From the NCBI GenBank assembly GCA_947854175.1, contig CANTYJ010000022.1:1-64000 (forward strand): a stretch of DNA of 64,000 nt, in the 5' to 3' direction. Positions 4,691 through 62,643 of the stretch are shown here, one piece after another; the stretch's first letter is position 1, and each line of letters starts with the position of its first letter. The position numbers and the translations under genes were made by a program. Origin of the DNA: an uncultured Turicimonas sp. (GTDB lineage: Bacteria; Pseudomonadota; Gammaproteobacteria; Burkholderiales; Burkholderiaceae_F). The notes under the pieces were generated by a model, which saw only the letters and a list, made by a program, of their open reading frames with translations, made no database searches and was not told the origin of the DNA.

Positions 4691-4723
4691 AGACGGATTA
4701 TTAGTCCGTCATGGAGATTCACC

Positions 4724-5458
4724 GTGAGTATAACAATCGACAGAAGAAGATTTCTTGCCGGTACAACCGCGGGATCGTTGATGGTTCTTTCTCTCGGGGC
4801 ATGTAAGCCCAATGACCAGAAGGCTACCCTCGACTCCAAGGAGAATAATGCTCAGCCTCAACCACATTATGCGATGGTTTTTGATCAGAACAAATGCATC
4901 GGTTGCGGTCTTTGCAAAACTGCCTGTAATGAAACCAATCAGTTGCCCAAAGGCGTTTCTCGTCTGGTTCTGGAACGTCAGACTACACATGTTCCCGGCA
5001 CAGCTTGTCCGGTTTGTGGAAAACTTGAAGGATGCGACTGTGAACGTGTATATGTCCGTGTATCTTGTCAGCAGTGCCAGGATGCACCGTGCGTAAGAGT
5101 TTGCCCGACAGGAGCCGCTCATCGGGACCCGAAGACAGGAATTGTGACAATGGATGCTGACAAATGTGTAGGATGCAAATATTGCATCGCCGCTTGTCCC
5201 TACAACGTCCGTTTCATTAACTCCGAAACAAAAGTTGCTGACAACTGCGATTTTTGTCTCAACACTAAATTAGCTAAGGGTGAAGAACCGGCCTGTGTAC
5301 AGGTCTGCCGCCACGGAGCACTATACTTCGGCGACATTAATGATCCTTCAACCATCATTAGCCGTTTATTGCGAGTTAAAGATACTGTTCGCATTCGTCC
5401 TCACCTTGGTACAGAACCAAGCCTGAGATATATTCCGGTAACCAAAGAAGGAGTCTGA
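4724..5458 (+). CDS. mccC: Tat-exported 4Fe-4S ferredoxin-type protein (MccC/NrfC-like)
   Basis: Twin-arginine start DRRRFLAGTTAG; multiple CxxCxxCxxxC clusters (CIGCGLCKTACN, CQQCQDAPCVRVCP, CVGCKYCIAACPYN). Confidence 0.88.
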   Translation: MSITIDRRRFLAGTTAGSLMVLSLGACKPNDQKATLDSKENNAQPQPHYAMVFDQNKCIGCGLCKTACNETNQLPKGVSRLVLERQTTHVPGTACPVCGKLEGCDCERVYVRVSCQQCQDAPCVRVCPTGAAHRDPKTGIVTMDADKCVGCKYCIAACPYNVRFINSETKVADNCDFCLNTKLAKGEEPACVQVCRHGALYFGDINDPSTIISRLLRVKDTVRIRPHLGTEPSLRYIPVTKEGV

Positions 5459-54037: not shown

Positions 54038-55309
54038 TTATTCAATAACTTTGTTCTGGCGCATTTCTTCAATCTGTTCAGCTGTATAACCCAACCTTGT
54101 CAGAATTTCGACATTGTTTTCACCTAATGCCGGGGCGGGACCGTATGTCGGCTTGAAGTTGGAGAATGTGCAAGGAACACCGATTGTCTTGAATGAACCT
54201 CTTACGCCACCTTGTTTAATATCAATTAAGGTACCGTCAGAATTCAAATCAGGATCGTTTTCGATTTCTTTCCAGTTCAGAACCGGACCAACCGGAACAC
54301 CTTTAGCGCCCAATTCCTCTGTTACAGCGTATTTATCTTTGGTCATTGTGTAAGCTTCGATAGCTGCATAAATTTCTCTCTTATGCAGGTCACGGGCTTC
54401 CGGTGTGCTGAACTTCGGATCAGTTAACCAAGACTGGAAGCCCATTGCGTTACAGAACTGTTCAAAGCCTTTCTGACTCTTCTGAATAACGATGTATACA
54501 TAATCGTTCGGGTCAGTAGCCCAGTTCTTGCATTTGTAGCACCAACCGAGAACTTCGCCGCCTTCAGCATTAGCCGGACGAGGAATAGCTTCACCGAATT
54601 TTTCATACGGATAGCAAGCATAGTATTTGAGCTCGCCAAGACGATCCAAAATCAACTGGTCACGCAATTTAATACGGCAAAGATTTAATACAGCGTTTTG
54701 CATGGACTGGTAAACGTAAACACCTTCACCGGTCTTTTGACGCTGGCAAATTGCGGCAAGGATACCGATCAAGAAGTGCATGCCGGTGTTTGAATCACCA
54801 AGTGCAGCACCGGACTGTGTCGGGATATTATCAGGGCCTGAGAACCAACCTGTTGCTGTAGCTGCTCCACCTGCACACTGTGCAACCGGTTCAAAAGCTT
54901 TAACATTAGCAAAACGGGAGCCCATATTGAAACCTTTTAGGGAGCCCATGATGCATTTTGGATTGATTTTGTGAACTTGTTCCCAACCGAACCCTAATTC
55001 TTCAATAGCTCCCGGATGTAAGTTTTCAACGAAAACATCGCAATCCTTAATAAGTTGAGTCAGGACTTTTTTACCTTCTTCAGTCTTAGCATTTAAGGCT
55101 AAAGATTTTTTATTACTATTTAACTGAAGATAGTACAAGCTATCTTGTCCGGGGATATCCTGAAGTTCATTTCTTGTTGGGTCTCCGCCGCCCGGACGTT
55201 CAATTTTAATAACTTCCGCACCGAACCATGCCAACATCTGAGTGCATGACGGACCCGACTGAACTTCAGTCATATCTACAACTTTTAGACCTTCTAATGG
55301 AGCAGTCAT
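54038..55309 (-). CDS. frc: Formyl-CoA:oxalate CoA-transferase (class III CoA-transferase)
   Basis: Frc-like start PLEGLKVVDMTEVQSGPSCTQMLAWFGAEVIKIERPGGGDPTR; conserved GAALGDSNTGMHFLIGILAA (catalytic Asp) and QNAVLNLCRIKLRDQ. Confidence 0.88.
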   Translation of the reverse strand: MTAPLEGLKVVDMTEVQSGPSCTQMLAWFGAEVIKIERPGGGDPTRNELQDIPGQDSLYYLQLNSNKKSLALNAKTEEGKKVLTQLIKDCDVFVENLHPGAIEELGFGWEQVHKINPKCIMGSLKGFNMGSRFANVKAFEPVAQCAGGAATATGWFSGPDNIPTQSGAALGDSNTGMHFLIGILAAICQRQKTGEGVYVYQSMQNAVLNLCRIKLRDQLILDRLGELKYYACYPYEKFGEAIPRPANAEGGEVLGWCYKCKNWATDPNDYVYIVIQKSQKGFEQFCNAMGFQSWLTDPKFSTPEARDLHKREIYAAIEAYTMTKDKYAVTEELGAKGVPVGPVLNWKEIENDPDLNSDGTLIDIKQGGVRGSFKTIGVPCTFSNFKPTYGPAPALGENNVEILTRLGYTAEQIEEMRQNKVIE

Positions 55310-55606: not shown

Positions 55607-58177
55607 ATGTCTACTCAAAATCCCAGTTTCTCAGTCCCGCTTCCGACGACAGTTAAAGTCCGAGTTGAAGAGCAGATGATCCAGAAAGATTTTAGAGGCT
55701 ATTTGACTCGTGCGATTACATGGACTGCACTAATGCCTTTATTTATGCTGGCTTTTATGCATTTGAACCAAATGCTCCGGGAAAATGAAGAAAATGACGT
55801 TAGACAGATGGCTTTAACGGCACAATTAGGAAACCAGCTGTCCGGCGAAATGCTATCTATCCGCTCCTTTTTAGATTCAAGTTTAGATTCACTGAGCATC
55901 CACCGGCAAAATTCAAATACTTCTTTGGCAGATTGGGCTATTGCAAGGTTTAACCGGCAGGACTCCGTCGAAAATCTTTTACTTATTCCGACAAACAAAA
56001 ATGAACCGTACAGGATTTTTAAACGAAATAAAGCTGCCCGAACTGACACAATAAATAGGGAGCTTTTAAATTCACTAATTCATAAATTTAAACATGCCGA
56101 AGGCGATTTTGTCTTCTACAAATATTCTGAAAAAAACAAACAGGATTACTGCTTCGGAGCACCTGTAAAAAACGCCCCGGGGCTCGACGGTTATTGGTTA
56201 TCTACGTGTGTTCCTGAAACTTATTTTGCCAATATGTTTCAACATACTATTGGCTTAGAGCCTTTTACAATCCAACTTTTAAATAGTTCAGATCAAAGTT
56301 TTTACGAAAAATCCGTTAATTCAGATAACACTATATTTTCACCGGTTGGCGGGCAAGGATTTTATGCAGAAGCTTTCCATAAAGTTAGCTCAGACAAACC
56401 CATCTGGAGGACTGATAAAAAAAGAAACGAGGCGCAGGTATTGACTGCGACAGCTATCTCACCAGGCGATCTTTTATTGATAGTAGGACAACCTTTAGCA
56501 ATCCGCGACAAACAACTTCTTTCTTCTTTAACAACGTCGGGAATCTTTCTGGTAGCTGCAATCCTTGCAGCTTTCGTCGTAGGTACTGCTTTGGGGCGGC
56601 AATTAAATGAGGCAGTCAGAAAACTTATAGAACAACTCAGCACTTTTGAAAAAACCGGAAAAATTTCAAAAATGGATCCTGGTTTTAAAGAGACGGCCCC
56701 ACTGGAACTTCAATTGCTTTCCTCTAAGTTTGAAGAGATGGCACAAACCGTTGCATTAGCCAGGAAACGTCTGGAAAGTGCAAATGAAGCTCTTAGTGAA
56801 CAAGTCGAAAAAAGGACGGCTTCTTTAAACCAAAGGAAAGAGGAACTAAAAAGTCTTCAGCTTTTATTGGCACCTCTGGAAGAATCTATAGACGTTGTAA
56901 TTGCAAAGACAATAAATAGATTTAAAGGTATCTTTGATATAAATGTCTTATTTTTCTCTAAAGACAAAGTTGAAGACAATTTTTATGACTTCATTCCGGT
57001 AAAAGGTAGCGATGGTAATACATTAGGCTACTTGTACTTCAACTGCGGGACAGATACTAAATCACTCGCATCAGGTGCACTTTTGAGATTGGCTCATTCA
57101 ATTGCTATTGTGATGGACAATCAGGAGATGTACTCTTCTTTAAAGACATCAAGTTCGAGATTTACTGCCTTAATGGAATCGATGACTGAAGGCGTGGTTC
57201 TGGTCGGAAAAACAGGAAGTCTCCTTTATGCCAACAAGGTTGCCAGAAGAATTCTCGGATTAGAAATCAATCAGGAAATAAGCAATTTTGAAGAGCTGTT
57301 TGTATCCCTTTTCCGGCCAACAGAGCCGATAGATGAAAATCAGGACTCCCGTCATGAAGTAGTGATCAGATACTCGAGTACAACAGATTCAGATTTCTTT
57401 ATTGAAACAACGACTTTTAATGTTCCGGGGTTTTATGGATTTTCAGGACGAAGAAAAGGACTGCTAATCCGGGATATTTCTCAGGAAATCGCTATGGAAC
57501 GGATGAAAAAGAATCTGGTCTCCATGGTCGCACACGAACTTAAAACGCCTGTGACGACAATGAGATTGCAGGTCGAAACATTGGATCGTCAATTGCAGAA
57601 AAAAGACAATTCATTTGCTCATGAGATGTTGTCTGAAATGCTGGAAGAAAGTTCCCGTTTACAACGACTCGTTGAGGACTGGCTGGATATGTCACGCATT
57701 GAAGCCGGAGCTATTGTGCTACGGCCTAAAATTTATTCCGTTCAGCAACTGTTAAACAAGGCGAAAGCTGTTGTCGGACAATATTATCCGGAGCTGGAAA
57801 TTAAGACCGAAATTGAAGAAGGTGCAGAATGCCTCATGGCGGATAAAGACAGAATGGTACAAGTATTTATTAATATTTTTACAAATGCTGCCCGGTACCG
57901 TTCTAAATTACCTCCTTTCTGTTTGGTGACTGTTCGCCAAATAAGAAATGAGATAGAGATCGCCTTTAAAGATAACGGGATTGGAGTCAAGGAAAACTAC
58001 CTTTCCAGGATTTTTGACTCTTTTTATCAGATTGAAATGGGTTCAGACAGAAAGGTAGGCGGTACAGGGTTAGGTTTGGCAATTTGTCGCGGTATCATGA
58101 CAGCTCACGGCGGCCGGATATGGGCAGAACGAAACAGTGATTGCGGAACAACATTTAAATTGAGGTTAACTGTATGA
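55607..58177 (+). CDS. Membrane sensor histidine kinase with extracytoplasmic, HAMP-like and PAS-like regions
   Basis: Two TM segments flanking a periplasmic region; HisKA VAHELKTPVTTMRLQVETLD; HATPase NAARYRSKL...DNGIGV...GGTGLGLAICRGIMTAHGG. Confidence 0.9.
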   Translation: MSTQNPSFSVPLPTTVKVRVEEQMIQKDFRGYLTRAITWTALMPLFMLAFMHLNQMLRENEENDVRQMALTAQLGNQLSGEMLSIRSFLDSSLDSLSIHRQNSNTSLADWAIARFNRQDSVENLLLIPTNKNEPYRIFKRNKAARTDTINRELLNSLIHKFKHAEGDFVFYKYSEKNKQDYCFGAPVKNAPGLDGYWLSTCVPETYFANMFQHTIGLEPFTIQLLNSSDQSFYEKSVNSDNTIFSPVGGQGFYAEAFHKVSSDKPIWRTDKKRNEAQVLTATAISPGDLLLIVGQPLAIRDKQLLSSLTTSGIFLVAAILAAFVVGTALGRQLNEAVRKLIEQLSTFEKTGKISKMDPGFKETAPLELQLLSSKFEEMAQTVALARKRLESANEALSEQVEKRTASLNQRKEELKSLQLLLAPLEESIDVVIAKTINRFKGIFDINVLFFSKDKVEDNFYDFIPVKGSDGNTLGYLYFNCGTDTKSLASGALLRLAHSIAIVMDNQEMYSSLKTSSSRFTALMESMTEGVVLVGKTGSLLYANKVARRILGLEINQEISNFEELFVSLFRPTEPIDENQDSRHEVVIRYSSTTDSDFFIETTTFNVPGFYGFSGRRKGLLIRDISQEIAMERMKKNLVSMVAHELKTPVTTMRLQVETLDRQLQKKDNSFAHEMLSEMLEESSRLQRLVEDWLDMSRIEAGAIVLRPKIYSVQQLLNKAKAVVGQYYPELEIKTEIEEGAECLMADKDRMVQVFINIFTNAARYRSKLPPFCLVTVRQIRNEIEIAFKDNGIGVKENYLSRIFDSFYQIEMGSDRKVGGTGLGLAICRGIMTAHGGRIWAERNSDCGTTFKLRLTV

Positions 58178-58884
58178 ATCCAAATAACTCTCTGATACTT
58201 GTCGTGGATGACGAGACGAAAATCAGAAGGTTAATCAGCACAAATCTGAGTTTTGAAGGTTTTGATGTTATTCAGGCAGAAGACGGCAAGCAGGCTCTCG
58301 AAGTATTCAATCGCACGCCTGAAAAACCTGATTTAATTCTGCTCGACTTAATGATGCCGGAACTAGACGGTATGGCAATGCTCAAACAATTAAGAAAATT
58401 CTCCGATGTTCCCGTCATCATACTGTCTGCTAAGGATGAAAGACCGACCGTCATAGAGGGTTTTAGAGAAGGCGCTGATGATTTTGTTTCAAAGCCGTTT
58501 TACATCCAAGAGCTCCTCGAAAGAATCCGTGCTGTTTTGAGGCGTAGCCAAAAATTTAAAACAATCCGGCCGGTCGGCCAGGAAGTATTAGTCAGCGGAG
58601 AGTTGTCTATCAATCTTTCTCAAAGGTTATGTCAAGTCAATTCAGAAAACGTGAAACTAACAAATAGAGAATTCCGCCTGCTTTACGAACTGATGAAGCA
58701 TCCCGGTGAGGTCCTCACACACGAAAGGCTGTTGAGAACGGTCTGGGGAGACGAATACATTGGTGAGGTGCAATATTTGCGTGTGACATTTGCCCGAATT
58801 CGAAGAAAGCTGGAGCAAGCAGGCCTAACTAGGGATGTCATCGGTGCCTATTCTAGTGTAGGGTATTTATTGCTGGAAGAATAA
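58174..58884 (+). CDS. OmpR/KdpE-family response regulator
   Basis: REC (VVDDETKIRRLI..LLDLMMPELDGMAML) and winged-helix output (LTNREFRLLYELMKHPGEVLTHERLLRTVWGDEY). Confidence 0.92.
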   Translation: MNPNNSLILVVDDETKIRRLISTNLSFEGFDVIQAEDGKQALEVFNRTPEKPDLILLDLMMPELDGMAMLKQLRKFSDVPVIILSAKDERPTVIEGFREGADDFVSKPFYIQELLERIRAVLRRSQKFKTIRPVGQEVLVSGELSINLSQRLCQVNSENVKLTNREFRLLYELMKHPGEVLTHERLLRTVWGDEYIGEVQYLRVTFARIRRKLEQAGLTRDVIGAYSSVGYLLLEE

Positions 58885-58905
58885 TATCAAGAATTTCAGC
58901 AGTCT

Positions 58906-58947
58906 AAACCGGTCTTAAGAAGGAGTTCCTTTTAAGCCGGTTTTCTT
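58906..58947 (+). terminator. Terminator after the two-component system
   Basis: AAACCGGTCTTAAGAAGGAGTTCCTTTTAAGCCGGTTTT. Confidence 0.75.
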
Positions 58948-59089
58948 ATTTTTGGGGTTGTAAGAGAAAACACCGATATTCCGTAATTTTTTTGCAATCT
59001 TTTTAAATATTTTGTTACTGAGCTGCAATGCCATCTTGAGAACATTTATTTGAGCAAATCTCAAACCCATCTAATTGGAGAAAAACATG

Positions 59090-60370
59090 ACTACTCAAAT
59101 GGTTCTAGCGCAATGCATTATGGTGTTGACGCTGATAATTATGATTACGGGCTTAACGCCTATCTACATCACAGCTATCACAGGAGCAGCAATATCTGCC
59201 ATCGTTGCAGGGTTCCCATTGGCGGGGAGTGCCCCTATGACAGTCGCTAAAATGATTAACTCGGGTTTAAATCCTGTTATCGCAGATATGACCGGTATCT
59301 TGCTATTTATTGGCATTATGCAGGCAACAGGATTCTTGGATGTTATCGTTCGCGATATCGTCCGAGTCGGAAATAAGATTGGCGGAGGTCCGGGAGTATG
59401 TACCGCCGGCGGTATTGCAGCCGGCTGTATCGGTGCTTTGACCGGTTTTACTCAGCCTGTTATTACGGCTGTTATTACAGGTCCTGCTGCTGTCCGCCTG
59501 GGTGTTGATCCAAACAAAGTTGCCGGTATCCAAGGTCACGCCGGTCACATCGGAAACTTAGCAGGTTTTACACATCCAACTCAGGTTGCTATTTTGGCTA
59601 CAGCCGGTATCGGTTACGGTTTATTTAACGTTCTTGGTTTAATTGCAGCTCTTTCTATTTTCTTCATGTCCTGCTTGCGTGTTGTACGTGATATGCACAA
59701 ACGCGGTGTGACAATCTCCGAAGAAGACAGACTTGCCGTTATGGCTGAAATCAATAACAAGGAATACAAGACAACTTCATTGAGAGCTTTCCTTCCGTTC
59801 CTGGTTCTGGTTGTCGGTTTTGTTCTTGGCCTTCCAATCTTCCTCGTTGGTTTAGCTTCAGCTCTTGTTGTTATGGTTCTTGCCCACAAGGACATGAAGT
59901 CATCTGAACAAACTATGATGCAAGGTGTCGGTTTGATTGCTACTCCTTTAGTAGCAACCATCGGTTTCTTGTTCATGAGTACTGTTATTAAACAGATTGG
60001 TTTGGCTGACACCATTTCAACCTTTGCAGCTCCGATGCTTTCCTTCTCACCGATTTTGATCATGTTCTGTGTATCTTTCGTTACCGGTTTCATGACACAG
60101 TCTTATGGTGCTTCTGTTGCTGTGGTTATCCCGTTCCTGCAGGTTGTTCTTGCTTCCGGTGCTGATCCGTTTGCCGCCGCATTTGCTGCTGCTTCCGGTG
60201 CATCTCTTATTCAGTACTTCCTGACAGGTGGTCCGGTTGCTGCTCTTGCTACCGTTATTCCGGTTGTTCCCGGTTCTTCTCTTAAACCGGCAAACTTGTT
60301 CCAAAGACCGTCAATTCTCTTTGGTTGCTTTGTAGCATTGTGCATTTCTATGGCACTTTCTGTTCTTTAA
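59090..60370 (+). CDS. GntP-like/ion-transporter-superfamily permease
   Basis: Polytopic; GLTPIYITAITGAAISAIVAGFP, GGIAAGCIGALTGFTQPVITAVITGPAAVRLGVDPNKVAGIQGHAGHIGNLAGF; start chosen at the internal ATG 59090 region (upstream ATG 59075 is also possible). Confidence 0.75.
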   Translation, partial: TTQMVLAQCIMVLTLIIMITGLTPIYITAITGAAISAIVAGFPLAGSAPMTVAKMINSGLNPVIADMTGILLFIGIMQATGFLDVIVRDIVRVGNKIGGGPGVCTAGGIAAGCIGALTGFTQPVITAVITGPAAVRLGVDPNKVAGIQGHAGHIGNLAGFTHPTQVAILATAGIGYGLFNVLGLIAALSIFFMSCLRVVRDMHKRGVTISEEDRLAVMAEINNKEYKTTSLRAFLPFLVLVVGFVLGLPIFLVGLASALVVMVLAHKDMKSSEQTMMQGVGLIATPLVATIGFLFMSTVIKQIGLADTISTFAAPMLSFSPILIMFCVSFVTGFMTQSYGASVAVVIPFLQVVLASGADPFAAAFAAASGASLIQYFLTGGPVAALATVIPVVPGSSLKPANLFQRPSILFGCFVALCISMALSVL

Positions 60371-60380
60371 ATCTAACAGC

Positions 60381-60412
60381 AAAGATGAGGAATTAATTTT
60401 CCTCATCTTTTT
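60381..60412 (+). terminator. Terminator/attenuator hairpin between permease and 60425 gene
   Basis: AAAGATGAGG-AATTAATTTT-CCTCATCTTTTT. Confidence 0.75.
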
Positions 60413-60424
60413 AAGGTGACGTTC

Positions 60425-61639
60425 ATGTTAAAACTCATGAAAGAAGGTCAGTCAGTCCTAGGTATTGTCGGTCATGCCGGTTGCGGTCACGCCAATAGTC
60501 ACCTAGGTTTTATTCAAGACGATTCAGGAGGATTAAGCGCTGTTATTCGGTTATTGCAAAGAGCCACCGGTATTGACTTAGAGATAACTGAAATCAATGT
60601 GCAAACGGGTAAAAACGGAGCATTTTTTGAAGTTAAAACAAAAAGTGGAGGAACCGGTAAAGCTTTTGCAAGAAGGGGAATTACAATTTTTGAAAAAAGA
60701 TTGTCTCAGTATGCTCTTGGCAAACAAGCTGTCAATTCTCAGGCCATCGCGTGTGAAACCTTCGGCCGTATTTTGGGTCAGGGGGCAATGGAAGTCCCGG
60801 TCGCTTTTCAAACAGCGGTTGCGAATGCTTCCATGGACAGTTTTATTCAACAGTTCCCGACATTTTTCTTAAGTTCTGATGAAGGAATAGAAGGCAACTG
60901 CGGCAAAATAATTGGTACCAGACTAGAAATTGATGGTATTCCCGTCTCTGTTCTTGCTTTATCAAATGCTTCTATCGGTGGAATCGGACCAAATGAGGAC
61001 GTCGAAGGAAACGTCAATTTGTTTGGCAAAGAAGTTATCATGAAAGAACTTGGGTTGGATAATCTACCGTCTTTTGTAATAGAAGGAAAGGTATGTGCTC
61101 AACCGGTATCTTCAGAAATTAATATCCCAACGTTTCTGATTAGAGGCTTTGTAAAGCATGATAATCCTGTGATCGCTGAAGCGTTGCTGGAGGCAGCTGA
61201 AATATTAAATTATCCGGCAATATACAGACCTGAACTTTTAGAAAGATCAGATACAGCTATGAAAGATCTGACTGAAACTCAAGGCCGGTACATTCAACAA
61301 CTCGGAGAAAAGTTTTCTAAGGCCCAAACCGCTATAGAAAAGGTTGCCTTAGCAGCAGAGATCAATAGATTTGCCAGTGAAGATTTAGGCGGTACTACTT
61401 TCATGTCAACTTCAGTACATAAAGTGATGGGCGGAGTTGGTTGTATTCCAGGTACCAGCTGTGTTCTAAGTTTATTTATTCCGAATAGTCAGCTCGAAAA
61501 AGATGTTATTCCATCTCTGTCGATGGAAGACGTAAACCGGTACGTCGATCTCATCATTGAAGGGATTAAAGTACTGGATACAAGAAAACAGGCCGCAGAA
61601 AACCATATGGTAAAAGTGAAACAAGAATTCAATTTATAG
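60425..61639 (+). CDS. Uncharacterised ~405-aa protein, candidate enzyme
   Basis: Intact ORF with motif-rich N-terminus GIVGHAGCGHANSHLGFIQDDSGGLSAVIRLLQ and GGVGCIPGTSCVLSLFIPNS; linked to permease and asparaginase. Confidence 0.8.
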   Translation: MLKLMKEGQSVLGIVGHAGCGHANSHLGFIQDDSGGLSAVIRLLQRATGIDLEITEINVQTGKNGAFFEVKTKSGGTGKAFARRGITIFEKRLSQYALGKQAVNSQAIACETFGRILGQGAMEVPVAFQTAVANASMDSFIQQFPTFFLSSDEGIEGNCGKIIGTRLEIDGIPVSVLALSNASIGGIGPNEDVEGNVNLFGKEVIMKELGLDNLPSFVIEGKVCAQPVSSEINIPTFLIRGFVKHDNPVIAEALLEAAEILNYPAIYRPELLERSDTAMKDLTETQGRYIQQLGEKFSKAQTAIEKVALAAEINRFASEDLGGTTFMSTSVHKVMGGVGCIPGTSCVLSLFIPNSQLEKDVIPSLSMEDVNRYVDLIIEGIKVLDTRKQAAENHMVKVKQEFNL

Positions 61640-61647
61640 GTGAGTAA

Positions 61648-62643
61648 ATGAGCAGTAAGAAAAAAGTAATCGTTTTTACAACAGGCGGAACAATTGCCAT
61701 GAAGTATGACCCGAAGGTCAACGGACTTGTTCCTGCTGTAAGTGGTGCTGATCTGGCAGCAGCTGTTCCCGGGCTTAGCGATGTTGCTGATGTTGAAGTT
61801 AGAGAATTTTCAAACATTGCCAGTCCATCAATGACTCCTGAGATGATGTTCAGATTATCTCAGATGATTGAAGAGGCTTTGAAAGAAGAAGGCGTTGACG
61901 GTGCAGTGGTTACACATGGAACCGACACCTTGGAAGAAACTTCTTTCATGCTGGATCTTTTGCATAAGAGCGATAAGCCAATAGTTCTAACAGCTGCTAT
62001 GCGCGGTGCGGGTGATACAAGCCCCGACGGCCCGGCAAATATTTACTGTGCTGTCAAAACTGCAGCAAGCGAAGAAGCCCGCGGAAAAGGTGCTATGGTC
62101 TTGTTAAATGAGACTATTCATGCTGCCGGCCAGGTAAGAAAAACTCATTCAGCTAACCCTGCAACATTTGCTTCACCTTGGTGGGGCCCGATTGGTTATT
62201 GTGATGTAGACAGAGTTGTCTTCAGAAGAGAGCCTTTAAACCGTCAGACATTTTCTCCTGAGGCTTTAACCGCCCGTGTTGATATTGTTCCGGCTCAGAC
62301 AGGAATGGGCCGAGATTATATTGATTGTGCTGTTTCAAAGGGCTGTAAAGGCATCATTGTTGAAGGCTTCGGCCGTGGAAATGTACCAGCCATGATGGAA
62401 GAAGGTATTAAAGATGCGGCCGACAAAGGTATTGTCGTTGTGATTACAACAAGAACACCGGGCGGACGTCCTTACCAGGTATATGCTTATCCGGGCTCTG
62501 TTACCGACAGCCGCAATAAAGGAGCGATTCGAGGCGGAGAGTTTTCAGCAGCTAAAACCCGTTTAAAACTGATGGTCATATTATCTGAAAGACCGGAACT
62601 TGCTAACAACAAGGAAGAACTGGAAAAGCTTTTAGACGCTTAG
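61648..62643 (+). CDS. L-asparaginase/glutaminase family amidohydrolase
   Basis: VFTTGGTIAMKYD and VVTHGTDTLEETSFMLDLL active-site motifs. Confidence 0.92.
   Translation: MSSKKKVIVFTTGGTIAMKYDPKVNGLVPAVSGADLAAAVPGLSDVADVEVREFSNIASPSMTPEMMFRLSQMIEEALKEEGVDGAVVTHGTDTLEETSFMLDLLHKSDKPIVLTAAMRGAGDTSPDGPANIYCAVKTAASEEARGKGAMVLLNETIHAAGQVRKTHSANPATFASPWWGPIGYCDVDRVVFRREPLNRQTFSPEALTARVDIVPAQTGMGRDYIDCAVSKGCKGIIVEGFGRGNVPAMMEEGIKDAADKGIVVVITTRTPGGRPYQVYAYPGSVTDSRNKGAIRGGEFSAAKTRLKLMVILSERPELANNKEELEKLLDA

Follow-up and report, generated by a model that had tools for sequence, protein, structure and literature searches.

A candidate unit for sensed uptake and catabolism of acidic amino acids around an uncharacterised protein family in Turicimonas

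Gene content of the locus and its candidate operator

The window, the whole stretch of 64,000 nucleotides analysed here, lies on a single contig; the genome, of 2.45 Mb, shares its genus with Turicimonas muris YL45. Between 55607 and 62643 it carries five ORFs, all intact at the coordinates first given and arranged head to tail on one strand (Table 1), as the earlier note had described for its four parts: a two-component system, an importer, an uncharacterised protein and an asparaginase. The kinase and regulator ORFs share 4 bp at the kinase stop, a gap of 200 bp separates the regulator from the permease, and the asparaginase starts 8 bp after the stop of the gene for the uncharacterised protein, which we call ENZ. 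Divergent from the kinase lies a formyl-CoA:oxalate CoA-transferase-like gene (54038-55309, minus strand; TIGR03253, 627 bits vs a cut-off of 504), which suggests oxalate use in this genome. The 3' side of the asparaginase is occupied by a VTT-domain protein on the minus strand and an ETF subunit (Pfam). No literature was found on asparagine use in Turicimonas or Parasutterella or on the permease-ENZ-asparaginase cluster.

Table 1. Features of the locus, in window positions
Feature	Coordinates	Strand	Basis
Sensor histidine kinase, ATG start	55607..58177	+	HisKA, HATPase_c, PAS over Pfam cut-offs
OmpR/PhoB-type response regulator	58174..58884	+	Response_reg and Trans_reg_C (Pfam)
Candidate regulator binding site, direct repeat GTAATTTTTTTGCAATCTT	58983..59001	+	Half-sites spaced 11 bp
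Dedicated permease, ATG start, ion-transporter-superfamily-like	59087..60370	+	Orthologue Pfam matches
ENZ, uncharacterised protein of 404-407 aa	GTG 60416 or ATG 60425 to 61639	+	AF2 model, conservation
Asparaginase without signal peptide	61648..62643	+	PF00710 and PF17763

The Pfam domains of the kinase and the regulator bear out the sensor and regulator that had been proposed, and their adjacency is that of an OmpR-type two-component system. The N-terminal region of the kinase before HisKA (55607-57100) matched no Pfam family at E 0.001 and is a predicted sensor region of an undescribed kind. The repeat GTAATTTTTTTGCAATCTT consists of two GYAAT half-sites within the gap before the permease; their 11 bp spacing is that expected for a dimer of the OmpR/PhoB family. 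It was kept in 7/7 window-type (permease-type) loci tested, once per locus and always in the pre-permease gap, and in L015 and L018 the tandem copies are perfect. A search of the window genome allowing up to one mismatch returned this single occurrence, and the chance expectation for the 16-nt repeat core is 0.06 matches per window. Because the repeat is both conserved in these loci and unique in the genome, the two-component system probably controls the permease, ENZ and the asparaginase, with the repeat as candidate operator. From the same conservation and uniqueness we infer a dedicated regulon.

Scanned as a single sequence, the permease, a helical protein of about 427 aa, reached the cut-off of no family in Pfam, NCBIfam or PHROG. 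Its earlier description as GntP-like had to be given up: nine orthologues returned no GntP match at E values up to 1, the families matched being CitMHS, DctM and one that is due to chance. CitMHS was matched by 8/9 orthologues (best 1.7e-6) and DctM by 3/9 (best 2.8e-5); the window permease itself scores 18.2 bits against CitMHS (cut-off 31.9), and fold comparison was limited by a poor AF2 model (pLDDT 56.9). We regard the permease as a divergent ion-transporter-superfamily-like protein with a weak CitMHS/DctM signal. It resembles this superfamily (CitMHS, DctM, DcuC, NhaC) in its length, its helical character and the weak orthologue matches, but stays under the curated cut-off and has no Pfam family of its own. 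Most of the genomes searched have one copy of it, located at the ENZ locus; paralogues were seen in two genomes.

The asparaginase assignment stands, as both Pfam domains exceed their gathering cut-offs (PF00710, 203.5 bits; PF17763, 88.7 bits) and the predicted catalytic residues are kept. T15, S59, T92-D93 and K165 are invariant in a 14-member alignment; by E. coli asparaginase II, we take these to be the catalytic Thr, Ser, Thr-Asp and Lys. The best solved relatives of the protein are L-asparaginases such as 8h49 and 7c91, and it matches 8h49 over its whole length (E 3.7e-57). From type II-like bacterial L-asparaginases (PF00710/PF17763) it differs, however, in staying under the curated NCBIfam cut-offs for type I and type II, in having no signal peptide and in sitting in an ENZ-linked subclade. 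The window genome (G000) contains four more asparaginase genes, on contigs C82, C27, C92 and C69, which is a large set; relatives have up to eight asparaginase matches.

Distribution and gene neighbourhoods of ENZ

A scan of GTDB species genomes with the ENZ alignment identified 53 ENZ loci in Sutterellaceae, Desulfovibrionales and other sulfidogens, Bacillota, Fusobacteriota, Synergistota, single MAGs of other phyla and two archaeal MAGs. The lineages are mostly anaerobic. The order permease-ENZ-asparaginase is kept in Turicimonas muris (ENZ 76% identical), Parasutterella spp. and a Sutterella MAG and, more distantly, in a Desulfovibrionaceae MAG and a Syntrophomonadaceae MAG. The earlier note had made its proposal depend on the genes co-occurring in other genomes, and ENZ indeed adjoins an asparaginase in 15 loci, from bacteria and one archaeal MAG, with asparaginases of two clades. 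Other enzymes clustered near ENZ are CuyA (11 loci), RidA (6) and an Asp-type racemase (5). Transporters nearby comprise TRAP subunits (13 loci), a GltP/DctA-type symporter (12), the window-type permease (10) and TauE/SafE or related proteins (5), and a GntR regulator lies near ENZ in 8 loci.

The asparaginase loci and the CuyA loci show zero overlap. CuyA scored over the cut-off of the NCBIfam equivalog NF052482 in 7/7 tested; in Desulfobacterota it comes with RidA and TRAP, in Fusobacteriota with TauE/SafE. These operon links to CuyA recall cysteate catabolism (CuyA sulfo-lyase, CuyB racemase and a TauE/SafE-type exporter), whereas the window locus has an asparaginase and no CuyA, and ENZ is not CuyB by sequence family. 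ENZ is thus the constant element, partly as a consequence of searching with ENZ itself, while asparaginase, CuyA, transporter and regulator vary.

Mapped on the ENZ tree, the asparaginase label requires at least three changes, and so does the CuyA label; L022 (CuyA), for example, has L025 and L026 (asparaginase) as neighbours. A tree of 39 asparaginases, which also covers further copies of the same genomes, puts those linked to ENZ in two deep clades (each 100/100) and forces at least three changes of the ENZ-linked label. Because of this split, the pairing with ENZ is explained by predicted asparaginase activity and not by shared descent. A rough model of proximity by chance, which ignores shared descent, expects an asparaginase by ENZ in about 0.3 of 48 loci, or 0.9 in the worst case. 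Given the forced label changes on the trees and this low expectation, ENZ is probably linked functionally to both asparaginase and CuyA.

Predicted fold and conserved residues of ENZ

ENZ matched no family in Pfam, NCBIfam or PHROG, in line with its earlier description as uncharacterised. An AlphaFold2 model built from 45 members reached a pLDDT of 96.9 and a pTM of 0.95. Foldseek found no full-length match to this model in the PDB, and a viral fold library returned nothing. The single PDB match below 1e-3 was the NP-I phosphorylase 3qpb (E 1.6e-5, TMq 0.26), followed by many M42 aminopeptidases with TMq of about 0.25 or less. The fold may have unsolved relatives, because the libraries compared were the PDB and one of viral folds.

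Across the 45 divergent members, eleven charged or polar residues do not vary (H17, H22, Q31, D33, E90, E191, E194, K202, E220, R240 and D246), and the same alignment contains no conserved Cys. This pattern suggests a metal or general acid/base site. In the best hhalign stretch between ENZ and M42, the QDDSxG of ENZ lies on the M42 DDRxG (P 0.013, probability 3%). ENZ thus shares with the M42 aminopeptidases and NP-I phosphorylases (SCOP c.56) a weak, partial fold resemblance and a comparably placed DD-x-x-G motif, but with a TM-score of about 0.25 and no significant sequence match it is not filed there, and we rejected its identification as an M42 aminopeptidase.

Further candidate families were rejected as well. 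Enolase-superfamily structures match about 90 ENZ columns with a Foldseek probability of up to 1.0, a likeness confined to the enolase/mandelate racemase N-terminal cap (MR_MLE_N); in contrast, the secondary structure of the ENZ model includes no barrel domain, and hhalign of ENZ against verified MR_MLE members was not significant. DUF1177 (PF06675) was matched by one of the 45 members at E 0.054, with an hhalign probability of 0.3%. No NCBIfam match placed ENZ in the CuyB or Asp/Glu racemase families (NF052483, TIGR00035). Overall, the core of the locus is an undescribed, enzyme-like family set in a unit of familiar type composed of sensor, importer and catabolic enzymes.

Proposed function and alternative readings

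The partners found with ENZ have related substrates: Asn for asparaginase and cysteate, the sulfonate analogue of aspartate, for CuyA. The racemases belong to the Asp/cysteate type and the importers to amino-acid or dicarboxylate types. We consider the chances about even that the locus is a dedicated unit that senses, takes up and catabolises a solute of the acidic amino acid type (Asn/Asp class; elsewhere cysteate), possibly D-configured or N-substituted. The kinase would sense this solute via its N-terminal extracytoplasmic region, and the phosphorylated regulator would bind the 11-bp-spaced repeat and turn on permease, ENZ and asparaginase. The permease would then import the solute, and ENZ, probably metal- or carboxylate/His/Lys-dependent, would convert it into a form suited to deamidation by the cytoplasmic asparaginase. 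Elsewhere among anaerobes, the ENZ step would precede the action of CuyA on cysteate. The earlier suggestion of a solute sensed outside the cell, imported and processed thereby gains a conserved operator-like repeat; acidic amino acids (Asn/Asp/cysteate) describe the solute class better than generic amides, because ENZ pairs with CuyA in other phyla.

As to the chemistry of ENZ, we lean tentatively towards a racemase that inverts the alpha carbon. Hydrolytic release from an N-substituent is a close rival and nearly as likely, and some other reaction is as probable as inversion. According to a 2024 paper (PMC11382572), CuyB converts L- and D-cysteate into each other, and CuyA has a preference for the D form made by the racemase. 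CuyB was found over cut-off in 1/11 CuyA-linked ENZ genomes vs 7/10 others (Fisher p 0.008), a contrast that is confounded by taxonomy and includes MAGs that may be incomplete. ENZ is a candidate for the inverting enzyme, since CuyB is scarcer in these genomes and CuyA prefers D-cysteate. Sub-threshold Asp/Glu racemases are, however, present in most of the genomes compared, and in L038, L045 and L050 ENZ is accompanied by a racemase over the CuyB cut-off, so that a racemase role of ENZ would be redundant there. The stereochemical gap would vanish altogether if L-cysteate is the substrate, since CuyA was first described acting on L-cysteate, according to a passage in PMC10507020 citing Denger 2006. 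The closest structural matches of ENZ, all weak, are of hydrolase or phosphorylase types, which also counts against a racemase. In its fullest form, this reading makes ENZ the founder of a new class of racemases or epimerases acting on Asn, Asp or cysteate, metal-dependent, without PLP or a conserved Cys pair and with an unrecorded fold, which would supply the missing inversion ahead of CuyA (sulfidogens, Fusobacteriota) and ahead of asparaginase (gut Sutterellaceae). We rate this combined proposal as speculative and rather unlikely.

Alternatively, ENZ might be a metal-dependent hydrolase (aminoacylase- or peptidase-like, with a SCOP c.56-type core) acting on an N-substituted compound, from which it would release Asn, Asp or cysteate and leave the last step to asparaginase or CuyA. 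The ranking of 3qpb and the M42 aminopeptidases as top fold matches and the placement of the QDDSxG motif are consistent with this possibility, but neither the TM-scores nor the hhalign probability is significant. Among the neighbours, an amidohydrolase occurs in 6 ENZ loci, although the copy in L052 is distant from ENZ; Amidohydrolase-3 neighbours in five loci favour a hydrolase. An AbgT transporter or another amidohydrolase is found near ENZ in other loci, which likewise speaks for a hydrolase, yet the usual importers are of single amino acid or dicarboxylate types. On balance, we hold such a hydrolase to be possible, if doubtful.

An ordinary Asn/Asp scavenging operon, in which ENZ is a non-catalytic accessory or regulatory protein, appears distinctly improbable. 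Asparaginase, two-component system and permease alone would make a conventional unit of Asn utilisation, and the further asparaginases of the window genome fit this picture, but it is ENZ that stays constant while its partners change, and the number of invariant charged and polar residues is typical of an enzyme. That the genes are mere neighbours with unrelated roles is scarcely credible: ENZ is patchy, occurring in 11/67 genomes of the family, but its co-location recurs across phyla with asparaginases of separate descent.

Under the preferred reading of a dedicated unit with a catalytic ENZ, the locus points to an undescribed step in the anaerobic breakdown of acidic amino acids. The family is spread mainly over anaerobes from gut to sediment, as well as archaeal MAGs, while being nameless in the family databases and without a solved relative. 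The switch between asparaginase and CuyA suggests one step common to nitrogen and organosulfonate catabolism, with relevance for the formation of ammonia and of sulfite/H2S by gut bacteria, and the swapping of partners yields a short, testable list of substrates.

Several individual ENZ copies were also observed. L013 (CP102408.1, 47144-53206) is an orphan ENZ on a Fusobacteria plasmid, annotated 'hypothetical protein'. It adjoins a cyclic-nucleotide-binding regulator and a cluster that combines a sulfopropanediol dehydratase (NF048009) with TauE/SafE; sulfatases lie on the other side. Glycyl-radical sulfonate enzymes were rejected as a general partner of ENZ: the enzyme at L013 is this dehydratase, and the copy at L017 resembles pyruvate formate-lyase by its opening residues. 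The Parasutterella secunda ENZ (L017:7980-9077) is possibly a decaying copy, since about 26 residues are missing just before the conserved GGxGPNEDxEGN and the regulator ORF is short; this regulator is also divergent, and the locus has no GTAATTTTTTTGCAATCTT-type repeat. In an uncultured Parasutterella MAG (L066, about 4711-4875; G021:C153), ENZ lies toward the contig end with about 30 residues matched, the locus being cut by the assembly. One genome of the family encodes two near full-length ENZ copies (G103:C84 and G103:C98).
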